From: Treponema sp.
Lineage (GTDB): Bacteria > Spirochaetota > Spirochaetia > Treponematales > Breznakiellaceae
Assembly: GCA_031260245.1 (NCBI GenBank)
Contig: JAIRKH010000083.1
Coordinates: forward strand, 28,617-92,616
Length of the DNA: 64,000 bases
Reading direction: 5' to 3'
The first letter of the stretch is position 1, and each line of letters begins with the position of its first letter. The notes under the pieces are model-generated. The model was not told the origin of the DNA. It saw nothing but the letters and a program-made list of their open reading frames with translations, and did not search any database. A program made the translations under genes and the position numbers. This document shows positions 4,659-55,484 of this stretch, piece by piece.

Positions 4659-5153
4659 ATGCGAAGTTTGCGAATACTCCTCGAAGGAGCGACGTACCAC
4701 GTTACGTCGAAAATAGACCACGACGACATGTGCCTGCTTGATCCTCTGTTCAAACTATTATTCCTCTCGTTCGTCAAGAAGGCCAAGCGGAAGTTCCATT
4801 TCCAGTTGTGGGATTTCTGTATCATGGGAAACCATATCCATTTCCTGATAAAGCCTGGGAAAGACGCTAATTTATCGGAGATAATGCAATGGATAAAGTG
4901 TAATTTCGCGAAGGCGTGGAACAAGGCGCACGGGCGGAAGGGTCACGTATGGGGGGAACGGTTCTACTCGCGGATAATCGGTGGGATAGATGACTTTCTG
5001 CGGACGCGGAACTACATAGCGGAGAACCCCGTGAAGGCTGGGCTTGTAGAGCGGGCCGCGGAATGGATGTTTGGGAGTCTATACCATCGACTGCATCGAC
5101 AATCCGACTTATTAGACGAGCCTGTCATCGGTGGCGACTACGACGACGTATGA
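4659..5153 (+). mobile_element. REP-associated tyrosine transposase (RAYT, Y1/IS200-like), copy 1
   Basis: MRSLRILLEGATYHVTSKID...WDFCIMGNHIHFLIKPGKDANLSEIMQWIKCNFAKAWNK...GHVWGERFYSRII...YIAENPVKAGL; HxH motif and RAYT-type family residues; flanked by palindromes. Confidence 0.92.
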
Positions 5154-29924: not shown

Positions 29925-29959
29925 CAAAGCAATTCTCATGGCAACCCCGTATTACAGGT

Positions 29960-30439
29960 ATGAGAAGTTTACGAATACTTATCTACGGAGCGACGTATCA
30001 CGTTACGTCGAAAATAGACCACGACGACATGAGCCTTCTTGATCCCCTATTCAAGCTATTATTCCTTTCATTCGTCAAAAAAGCCAAGCGGAAGTTCCAT
30101 TTCCAGTTATGGGATTTCTGCGTCATGGGAAATCATATTCATTTTTTGATAAAGCCGGGTAAAGACGCTAATTTATCGGAGATAATGCAATGGATAAAGT
30201 GTAATTTCGCGAAAGCGTGGAACAAGGCGCACGGGCGGAAGGGACATGTGTGGGGAGAGCGATTCTACTCGCGAATAATCGGTGGGATAGAGGACTTTTT
30301 ACGGACGCGGGAATACATTGCGGAAAATCCTGTGAAGGCGGGGTTAGTGGAGCGGGCGGCGGAGTGGGCGTTTGGGAGTCTGTACTACCGACTACATCGA
30401 CAATCCGACTTATTAGACGAGCCTATTCTCGACGTATGA
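29960..30439 (+). mobile_element. RAYT transposase, copy 2 (nearly identical to copy 1)
   Basis: Eight amino-acid substitutions relative to copy 1 up to LLDEP by eye, then a different C-terminal tail; same flanking palindromes. Confidence 0.92.
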
Positions 30440-52420: not shown

Positions 52421-52457
52421 AGCCCCCCCTATAGGTCTGACCTATAGGGGGGGGGCT
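52421..52457. repeat. Perfect palindrome C7-TATAGGTC-T-GACCTATA-G9 flanking RAYT copy 3
   Basis: AGCCCCCCCTATAGGTCTGACCTATAGGGGGGGGGCT. Confidence 0.9.
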
Positions 52458-52936
52458 CTTGTAGATACTATCCCCATAATTCCCTGTTTGCGATGGTACG
52501 CCCCACCCCATTCCCAGTCTCCCGGTTCCTGCGCCAAACCCGCTTTCACCGGATTCCGGTCTATGTAGTTATATACCGTTAGAAAGTCTTCCTCCCCTTT
52601 TACCTCTCGCGCCCAAAACCGATCCCCCCAAAAATGCCCGGTCTTCCCGTGTAACTTGTTCCACCGTATCGCATATACCATTTTTATCCATTTAAGTACC
52701 ATCGACAGGCTCTCTCCTTTTTCTGGAGTGATAAGGAAATGGAAATGGTTATCCATTATGCAAAAGTTCCATAACTCAAACTTGAATCCTTTCTTGGTTT
52801 TGGCTTCTTGGATGATAGAGATGAATAGGTTTTTCATCACAACGGATTGTAGTTCGGGAACGTGACGGTTAACCTCCGATGAGACATGGTAGGTTAGACC
52901 CATATCGGTTTGTCCACGTGGGCGATGCGATGCCAT
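52442..52936 (-). mobile_element. RAYT transposase, divergent copy 3
   Basis: LTYHVSSEVN...ELWNFCIMDNHFHFLITPEKGESLSMVLKWIKMVYAIRWNKLHGKTGHFWGDRFWAREV...YIDRNPVKAGL. Confidence 0.92.
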
Positions 52937-52985
52937 AGTACCCTTATATATGGGTTTATTCTGTATTTTGCTTTGCTTTTTTCGG

Positions 52986-52998
52986 TAGGTCTGACCTA
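52986..52998. repeat. TAGGTCTGACCTA palindrome on the other side of RAYT copy 3
   Basis: TAGGTCTGACCTATAGGG read directly. Confidence 0.88.
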
Positions 52999-53718
52999 TA
53001 GGGAGTGAGGTCTGTCCTGCTGAGACGGTTTTTCCACAGCCAGGAAGTAGCGATGACTGATACAGTCAAAGTAACCCTGCCGTTCCATCACGGACTCTAA
53101 CACAGACAACTCTTGTTTAGAGATATTCGCGTTGAAACATTCGGTCAACAAGGGAATATGTTTGATATAATAAAGGACGTCGTCGATACGGTAGAACCGC
53201 TGTTTACCCATACTCTCGCCACAGTCTACGAGACATAAGCCCGCTCGTGCGAATGCGGCTGTGTTTTGCACGAGGTTCCGCCCTGTTATTTTGATAAGCA
53301 TACCCAATGCGGCGCAGAGGTCCAGTGCGTTCATGCCGCCGATTTGCTGTGTGATGAACACACCGCCGGGAGCAAGGGAGCGACAGACCTCGCTGATTTC
53401 GTATTTGCCGTTGCGGTTGAGGATGAGATCGAAAGACGCGTCTGGAAAAGGAAGCAGACAATCGCCGTTGGAGTGTTTGACGCGAACGCGCGCGTCTTTG
53501 ACGTTCCAGACCTGTTCTGGCGCATCGACGGGGAGTTTGTCGACGAACGCGACGCGCGGGGGTAGGGTAGGGAAGCAGTTTAGGAAGTCCGCGTTACCCG
53601 CGAACATATCAAGGATAGATTGTTTACCATGGAGAAACTTTTTGACAATGAGACGCAAGTCCCAAGGGAGAGGCTCCTCCTGCACCCTATTCTTTAGACC
53701 TGACAATTGCGGATTCAT
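52996..53718 (-). CDS. Class I SAM-dependent methyltransferase
   Basis: SILDMFAGNADFLNCFP, NGDCLLPFPDASFDLILNRNGKYEISEVCRSLAPGGVFITQQIG. Confidence 0.85.
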   Translation of the reverse strand: MNPQLSGLKNRVQEEPLPWDLRLIVKKFLHGKQSILDMFAGNADFLNCFPTLPPRVAFVDKLPVDAPEQVWNVKDARVRVKHSNGDCLLPFPDASFDLILNRNGKYEISEVCRSLAPGGVFITQQIGGMNALDLCAALGMLIKITGRNLVQNTAAFARAGLCLVDCGESMGKQRFYRIDDVLYYIKHIPLLTECFNANISKQELSVLESVMERQGYFDCISHRYFLAVEKPSQQDRPHSL

Positions 53719-53722
53719 TACT

Positions 53723-54259
53723 TTAACCTTTCACCAATCCTTCGCTCCGGATGAGGTCTGTCCTTGTGGAGAGCGCATCCACCGGAACAACGATACCTGA
53801 ACCCCAATTCGCCCACACCGCTTTTGCGTACTTAGTGGAATCCGTTTCAAGAGAAAGTGTTGCAAGATTCGTATCATTGTCTTCAGTCGCGCCGTTACCG
53901 TAGTCCGCGCTCTTGAAAGAAGAAGCATTCTCTAAAGCCTCAAAATCCTGAATGACAACTGGGGCGCCGGCGATAATTTTCTTGATGTCAATATTTAAGT
54001 CTTTCACATAGTATTTCTTGGCCTTTTTATCAGCCTTGTTTTCCGTCTTATGCCCATCTTTAAAAGTGTAGATGGTGTAAGGAATCTTGGTGTAAAGTTT
54101 GCCGTCTCCGAAGCCTTGTACCACATCGCCGTCTTCCGTGTTGGTGATAGTATAGCTCTGTGTGGTAATGCCCGGACCCTCGTCGTCGCCGCTGCAACTT
54201 ACGAGCGTCATGCCGAATGTCAGCATGACCGTCAACAATAATAAAAATGTTTTCTTCAT
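53723..54259 (-). CDS. Small lipoprotein paralogous at its N-terminus to the 5375..5636 pseudogene
   Basis: MKKTFLLLLTVMLTFGMTLVSCSGDDEG lipobox. Confidence 0.75.
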   Translation of the reverse strand: MKKTFLLLLTVMLTFGMTLVSCSGDDEGPGITTQSYTITNTEDGDVVQGFGDGKLYTKIPYTIYTFKDGHKTENKADKKAKKYYVKDLNIDIKKIIAGAPVVIQDFEALENASSFKSADYGNGATEDNDTNLATLSLETDSTKYAKAVWANWGSGIVVPVDALSTRTDLIRSEGLVKG

Positions 54260-54474: not shown

Positions 54475-54653
54475 CATCATGGAAAAGCGTATTCTGGAAG
54501 TATTATGTTTCGCATTCATAGCAATGAGTATAGCGCATTTATTTTTTTTGTCAAACAAAAAACGAAAAAACGTCGGAATTTTCGCATGAAGGACAGACCT
54601 CGTTTGGCGTGCGGTAGTTTACTTTTTATCGTAAACCGTGTAACATAAAGCCT

Positions 54654-55484
54654 ATGGTAAGAACGATAATGATAGGCGATGTGGTAGGAGAGCCGGGGTT
54701 GACGGCTCTGGAAAGAGAATTGCCATCTCTGATACGCGAGTATAAGGCTGATTTCGTAGTAGTGAACGGCGAGAATGCGGCTGACGGTTTCGGTATGACA
54801 GGACAGACCTTGAATCGCATCTTGCAAAGCGGGGCGGACGTTGTAACGTCGGGCAACCACGTTTGGGAAGAGCGCGAATTTTGGAGCGTTTTGGAAAATG
54901 ACGAGCGCGTTCTGCGTCCGGCGAATTACCCGCCGGGCATTCCGGGCCGCGGCTGGCTCAAAACGAGAAAAAACGGCGTCTTCTGGCTTGTTATTAACCT
55001 ACAAGGACGGGACAAGATGAAAAGCATAGATTGCCCGTTCAGGACCTTTGACGCGATATTTTCGGCGCGCGGCGATACTGTACCAGAACGCCACAAAATA
55101 TACGAAATGCCCTATCCGCCCTTCATTACGCTTATTGATTTCCACGCGGAATCCACAAAGGAGAAAGAAGCGCTAGGTTTCTATTTGGGCGCCCGCGCAA
55201 GCGTTATTGTGGGAACGCATACGCACGTACAAACGGCGGATAATCGCGTCCTACCCGGCGGCGCGGCCTATATCACAGATATAGGCATGACTGGCGTTCA
55301 GAATAGCGTTATCGGAATGGATACGCGGATATGCGTGGACCGCGCCGTGAAACAAGTTCTCTACCACATGGAATGCGCGCAGGGGGAAGGATCGGTTCAA
55401 GGCGTTGTTGCGGAAATCGACGAAAATACGGGAAAAGCCCTCTCCATTAAACGGATAGGACATACCGCGTCAGAGCGGGACTAA
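54654..55484 (+). CDS. YmdB-like metallophosphoesterase
   Basis: MIGDVVGEPGL, NGENAADGFGMTG, DVVTSGNHVWEERE, DFHAESTKEKEALGFYLGARASVIVGTHTHVQTAD, TDIGMTG. Confidence 0.93.
   Translation: MVRTIMIGDVVGEPGLTALERELPSLIREYKADFVVVNGENAADGFGMTGQTLNRILQSGADVVTSGNHVWEEREFWSVLENDERVLRPANYPPGIPGRGWLKTRKNGVFWLVINLQGRDKMKSIDCPFRTFDAIFSARGDTVPERHKIYEMPYPPFITLIDFHAESTKEKEALGFYLGARASVIVGTHTHVQTADNRVLPGGAAYITDIGMTGVQNSVIGMDTRICVDRAVKQVLYHMECAQGEGSVQGVVAEIDENTGKALSIKRIGHTASERD

Follow-up and report, generated by a model that had tools for sequence, protein, structure and literature searches.

The window analysed here, a stretch of 64,000 nucleotides of Treponema DNA taken at its full length, carries three REP-associated tyrosine transposase (RAYT) genes, and the third of these, RAYT3, raises the question of whether it belongs to the same lineage as RAYT1 and RAYT2 or represents a second RAYT lineage with a repeat of its own. 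A preliminary description of this DNA had proposed the latter, and our results make it quite probable that RAYT3 belongs to a second lineage of REP-associated HUH transposases (clade B) with its own AGGWCAGACCT-type motif, with RAYT1 and RAYT2 (clade A) using GTGTCWGACAC. RAYT3 shares 44% protein identity with RAYT1, consistent with the divergence proposed at the outset, and the core GTC(T/A)GAC said to be shared by the palindromes of all three genes is indeed common to the repeats of RAYT1, RAYT2, and RAYT3. The features that bear on this question are collected in Table 1.

Table 1. Coordinates in the window of the RAYT genes and of the repeats and leader associated with RAYT3.
Feature	Position	Strand	Basis or remark
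RAYT1, lineage A, GTGTCWGACAC on flanks	4659..5153	+	
RAYT2, lineage A, GTGTCWGACAC on flanks	29957..30439	+	
Perfect 31-bp palindrome at the RAYT3 3' end, C7-TATAGGTC-T-GACCTATA-G7	52423..52453	.	Fold of -17.4 kcal/mol
RAYT3 ORF, 164 aa, intact REP-associated tyrosine transposase	52442..52936	-	ORF, family profiles, fold
RAYT3 leader, AAAGCAAAAT box and CCCATATATAAGGGTACTATG	52937..52985	-	Layout common to RAYTs of other repeat classes
TAGGTCTGACCTA at the element's 5' end, upstream of the start	52986..52998	.	Pattern search
AGGTCTGTCCT, imperfect (T-T) copy	53008..53018	+	In tandem with the upstream palindrome
AGGTCTGTCCT, further copy	53754..53764	+	
AGGTCTGTCCT, further copy	54590..54600	-	Intergenic
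AGGTCTGTCCT, further copy	54800..54810	-	Within ORF 54654-55484

The catalytic signature of RAYT3 is complete, with the HUH motif at H64-F-H66 and the catalytic Y124 within YIDRNP, and these residues (H64-F-H66 and Y124-IDR-N128-P129) are nearly invariant among its relatives. The protein scores 51 bits against Pfam Y1_Tnp and 89 bits against the NCBIfam model NF047646 (REP_Tyr_transpos), passing the cut-off of 80, and the top PDB fold match of its AlphaFold model (mean pLDDT of 89) is 4er8, E. coli TnpAREP with a REP hairpin (E value of 1e-9). No tnpB was noted beside RAYT3. Boxes like AAAGCAAAAT or AATCAAAA lie ~33-36 nt upstream of the start codon in most RAYT elements (79 of 99, versus 15 of 97 control windows) and are followed by CCC..TATATA..GTATG, with no dependence on repeat class.

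The 13-mer TAGGTCTGACCTA is exact at both ends of the RAYT3 element (52432-52444 and 52986-52998), so that its positions, like those of GTGTCWGACAC at RAYT1 and RAYT2, are confirmed as first described; a longer string, TATAGGTCTGACCTATAGGG, had also been proposed for both flanks and is exact at the left end only, the right end reading GGTAGGTCTGACCTATAGGG. The left TAGGTCTGACCTA lies inside TATAGGTCTGACCTATA (52430-52446), within the 31-bp palindrome, and overlaps the RAYT3 stop codon. With a whole-genome expectation for the 13-mer of ~0.01, and with 8 matches in the window to AGGTCTGACCT at no more than one mismatch compared to 0.56 in shuffles (both strands, each palindrome scored twice), the palindromes at RAYT3 are real, and chance is excluded. 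Besides the flanking palindromes, four imperfect motif copies lie no more than 2 kb from RAYT3. A better notation for the cognate repeat is AGGTCTGWCC(T/C), usually with a T-T mismatch; the cognate signal of RAYT3 is an 11-bp quasi-palindrome, AGGWCAGACCT / AGGTCTGWCCT. Predicted folding of the core motif of this class gives very weak hairpins (-0.5 to -1.1 kcal/mol), and a search for a GT[AG]G tag at the hairpin foot found no conserved GTAG in the aligned motif instances.

The palindromes could instead be ordinary terminators or mRNA 3' structures of RAYT3 and of the ABC-transporter gene beside it. The left copy has 15-bp arms and is placed as such a structure would be, immediately behind the stop codon of the ABC gene and at that of RAYT3, and a strong hairpin is kept at the same place in a relative, but the upstream copy precedes a start codon, the terminator scan makes no call, and RAYTs at numerous unrelated sites in the genomes of another genus (g28, below) are bracketed by this motif too. 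This explanation is very improbable, and for the left palindrome, a terminator reading was rejected because there is no T tract. The RAYT3 3' hairpin may act as a terminator as a by-product.

Motif counts in the genome itself (2.34 Mb, 124 contigs) were obtained from pattern searches. It contains 28 Y1_Tnp loci, about two dozen of which are close relatives of RAYT1 and RAYT2, and RAYT3 is the only full clade-B copy found; GTGTCTGWCAC has 223 matches (both strands) and AGGTCTGWCC 33. The exact 13-mer TAGGTCTGACCTA, for which a genome-wide count had been suggested, occurs nowhere in the genome beyond the two RAYT3 flanks. Only four AGGTCWGACCT palindromes are present, and AGGTCWGACCT was rejected as a dispersed repeat in this genome, as neither of the two sites away from RAYT3 has the TA...TA frame and both appear to be chance occurrences. 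The dispersed form is the imperfect AGGTCTGTCC, with 27 sites versus 3.5-4.2 expected (Markov order 2 to 4) and 7 genome matches for a reversed control. Fifteen of the 27 sites lie inside long open frames, where chance may account for some of them, and about a dozen are apparently intergenic, near RAYT3, or adjoining clade-A repeats. The excess in this genome is modest, and clade B is low-copy here, with a single RAYT and perhaps a dozen intergenic repeats; the expanded clade is A. At four loci of this genome (L112, L097, L109, and L114), a solo AGGTCTGTCC adjoins GTGTCTGACAC repeats, as if the repeats of both lineages were gathering in the same intergenic spots.

With the RAYT3 protein as query, 149 genomes from the family were searched. 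Four of them, all from the genus g28, each hold at least 24 copies among the matches listed, at 55-72% identity to RAYT3 (the range given for the RAYT3 clade is 57-73%), and their Y1_Tnp genes by Pfam count number 97, 51, 37, and 33. In public records, the clade-B carriers are Spirochaetaceae/Treponema assemblies, for example Im510_bin15, Ncb351_bin45, Kf353_bin92, and PG1894_164, which, judging from the isolate names, we take to be termite-gut samples. AGGTCTGWCC occurs 1580, 1327, 833, and 490 times in the four g28 genomes and mostly fewer than 15 times elsewhere, and GTGTCTGWCAC occurs 0-4 times in g28 and up to 183 times in the genus of the window and in g4. The copy number of each motif tracks the presence of the matching RAYT, and because the RAYT3-type motif fills clade-B genomes and the pattern is mirrored in RAYT1/2-rich genomes, transposase and tag change together. 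The proposal of two RAYT/REP lineages thus stands insofar as, from one relative to another, the repeat goes with the transposase lineage, but not in its choice of TAGGTCTGACCTA as the dispersed sequence. Of the two outcomes named beforehand as refuting it, the first, no further exact 13-mer, is literally what the genome shows; the second, motif copies unassociated with RAYT3 homologues, is not, as the motif class is strongly associated with these homologues in relatives.

The end motifs of individual clade-B elements are of the RAYT3 type, reading GATA-GGACAGACC-TCG in G028, A-GGTCAGACC-T in G121, GG-GGACAGACC-TC in G070, and TTGG-GGACAGACC in G099. The sampled clade-B elements conform to AGG.CWG.CC(T/C), and, wherever a motif is recognisable, almost all clade-A elements to GTG.CWG.CAC. 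In G028, 11 of 14 repeats lie outside ORFs (of at least 100 aa); a gene-free location is not inferred for G070 and G099, because the repeat arrays there themselves form long ORFs. One contig of G070 (L145:14640-15420, G070:C3) has a dense AGGTCTGTCCCC array with ~20 copies in 0.8 kb at a spacing of roughly 35-45 bp. Against the clade-B reading, three genomes that have no clade-B RAYT show raised AGGTCTGWCC counts (76 in G001, 38 in G014, and 37 in G077). In G001, where no Y1_Tnp gene was found, an assembly gap or a relic population may be responsible.

On a maximum-likelihood tree built from 99 RAYT proteins, only three shifts in motif class are seen. Clade B has an SH-aLRT support of 97, and RAYT3 falls inside it, beside copies from G028 and G121; in this tree, the repeat on the flanks goes with the transposase clade. 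A third repeat class, AGCTCTGTCCC, belongs to a separate clade (L050, L054, L058, and L165), and its counts are raised mainly in genomes carrying RAYTs of that class. A fourth, GGGTCWGACCC, represented in two g49 genomes by 212 and 148 palindromes, adjoins RAYT-like proteins whose HUH motif is lost, and its presence accounts for the raised AGGTCTGWCC counts in g49 and G038. The pairing of enzyme and repeat thus extends to a series of four classes. In the RAYT-like proteins at L174, L182, L183, and L184 (from G038, G140, and G049), the HUH region reads LEDDWLxFYI(K/R)P with no HxH, and the C-terminal frames run into GGGTCAGACCC repeats; the Y1_Tnp counts of these three genomes are 10, 36, and 5, respectively, and the GGGTCAGACCC repeat reaches up to 212 palindromes in G140. 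A further RAYT clade (L006, G000:C48, and L038, G120:C50; ~55% and 52% identity to RAYT3, respectively) has no clear flanking repeat, and L038 has GGGACAGACAC.

It might be argued that the solo repeats were spread by another agent, such as slippage, gene conversion, or another recombinase, and that the RAYTs merely sit in these repeats or expand from them. Local arrays of regular spacing, such as that at L145, do look like tandem duplication, and the genomes with HUH-less RAYT-like proteins also hold hundreds of GGGTCWGACCC repeats. Yet the motif class matches the RAYT clade in every well-populated lineage, and genomes without the clade stay near background, and we consider a separate agent unlikely.

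In each element, the ORF has one copy of its own motif ~50-90 bp ahead of the start codon and a second copy at the stop codon. When the G028 copies are aligned, homology begins at (G)ATA-GGACAGACC, ~90 bp 5' of the ATG, and most copies end directly past the GGACAGACC at the stop codon; RAYT3 is organised likewise, but its 5' part is shorter. Sharp element ends are found in G028, G070, G099, and lineage A, and the end motifs are in direct orientation in RAYT3, G028, and G070 and inverted in G099. GATA or TATA precedes many end motifs, which is compatible with IS200/IS605-type insertion 3' of a fixed tetranucleotide. Copies within a genome differ by ~10-17% at the DNA level, with a median dS of 0.47-1.06 and dN/dS of 0.05-0.13, and this divergence and dS indicate that they are not the product of a single recent burst of identical copies. 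The substitution pattern points to strong purifying selection on the RAYT copies within a genome, and they have therefore either stayed functional or been copied from parents that were. At the orthologous site in G147, a member of the same genus (ABC gene 79% identical), no RAYT remains and two inverted motifs are left, along with ~30 bp resembling the RAYT3 3' end, an alignment that beats all 1000 shuffles. This relic implies that RAYT3 occupied the site before these species split.

These data also bear on whether RAYT3 could be a conventional IS200/IS605 insertion sequence of recent arrival, whose flanking repeats are merely its ends. Such a reading would fit the direct end motifs, the sharp ends, and the high copy number in g28, but the signature of RAYT3 is Y---NP rather than Y---Q, the protein reaches only 25 bits on the IS200 model NF033573 (cut-off of 55) and passes the RAYT model, hundreds of solo motifs are found without a gene, and the relic in G147 speaks against a recent arrival. 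Taken together, we find this reading quite improbable.

For RAYT3 as a RAYT of a second lineage, we infer both mobility and recognition of the repeat. Judging from the homologous E. coli TnpAREP and IS608 systems, a RAYT3-type enzyme would nick single-stranded DNA at or beside the motif via Y124 and subsequently re-join it. HUH action of the IS200/IS605 type would copy or move whole elements (motif-RAYT-motif), and short motif-bearing pieces might be moved in trans. As the core motif is a poor hairpin, base-specific reading is likely, and the choice of sequence may be set by residues on the helix that contacts the REP in E. coli TnpAREP. Six positions have no residue common to clades A and B (70, 82, 86, 87, 90, and 105), and four of these (82, 86, 87, and 90) are on helix 77-96 (P = 0.002). 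The E. coli counterpart of RAYT3 M86 in the alignment is K82, a residue in contact with the REP bulge (PMC8266576). GTAG is read in E. coli by Q95, E100, H101, and R104 (PMC6006769); in RAYT3 these are changed to G104, A109, R110, and K113, respectively, in line with repeats that lack GTAG. The association between motif and residues is not independent evidence of contact, because both are inherited together, and from the alignment, the helix residues are best viewed as hypothesized recognition determinants.

The presence of several RAYT/REP duos in one genome, their coevolution, and the correlation of their copy numbers are established (PMC2817692, PMC6006769), and in vitro work has already addressed cross-activity among three TnpAREP/REP duos (PMC8266576). 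The RAYT3 system resembles these in its HUH motif and single tyrosine, its Y---NP signature, and the fold of E. coli TnpAREP, in palindromes at the gene flanks, and in a repeat that coevolves with the enzyme, with several duos in one genome. Many dispersed copies of the flanking repeat, a further RAYT trait, are strongly evident in g28; in this genome, AGGTCTGTCC has 27 sites versus about 4 expected and 7 for the reversed control, 15 of them within long open frames. Unlike TnpAREP REPs, the RAYT3-type repeat is ~11 bp and has no GTAG/GTGG tag and no stable consensus hairpin. The end copies are directly repeated in most elements, whereas the REPs flanking the RAYTs of Nunvar 2010 are inverted (PMC2817692), and in contrast to the low gene copy of class 2 (PMC6006769), there are 28-97 RAYT copies per genome, although RAYT3 itself is single. 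With IS200/IS605 elements, the system shares an HUH Y1 transposase, end palindromes in direct orientation, and multiple copies, and it differs from them in failing the model cut-off, in Y---NP instead of Y---Q, and in its large population of solo repeats. It is also similar to the CGTC-tagged REPs and TIRYTs (PMC3733652), in that short palindromic repeats lack GTAG and the repeats flanking the tyrosine transposases are not GTAG REPs; there, however, the CGTC repeats have no dedicated transposase and the TIRs are long, whereas here an 11-bp repeat is found at the transposase ends.

Among open-access papers, these repeat sequences returned only unrelated primer or promoter strings, and no description was found of termite Treponema RAYTs or of high-copy RAYTs of this family. 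The 11-bp repeats without GTAG or a stable consensus hairpin, the high-copy RAYTs, and the class-discriminating residues of the DNA-binding helix are apparently new, at least to us. For TnpAREP-like subclasses 2.1 and 2.3, a search for GTAG-tagged hairpins with manual inspection found no REP-like repeats (PMC6006769), a search that very short untagged repeats such as these could escape.

The choice and spread of RAYT repeats have so far been studied with few proteobacterial duos. Here, one bacterial family provides four closely related classes of enzyme and repeat, with repeats that share a core and differ at only a few of the base pairs surrounding it, and with genome-wide readouts that range from near-dormant, as in this genome, to more than 1,500 copies. 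Swap tests are practical, given 11-bp substrates and four candidate residues. Tentatively, a RAYT family of termite-gut and related spirochetes may read the bases of an 11-bp, CWG-centred sequence with no stable hairpin or GTAG as a guide, move as whole elements to as many as ~100 copies, and have been retargeted at least three times via positions 82, 86, 87, and 90. If this were true, the family would hold a natural recognition code for HUH transposases.
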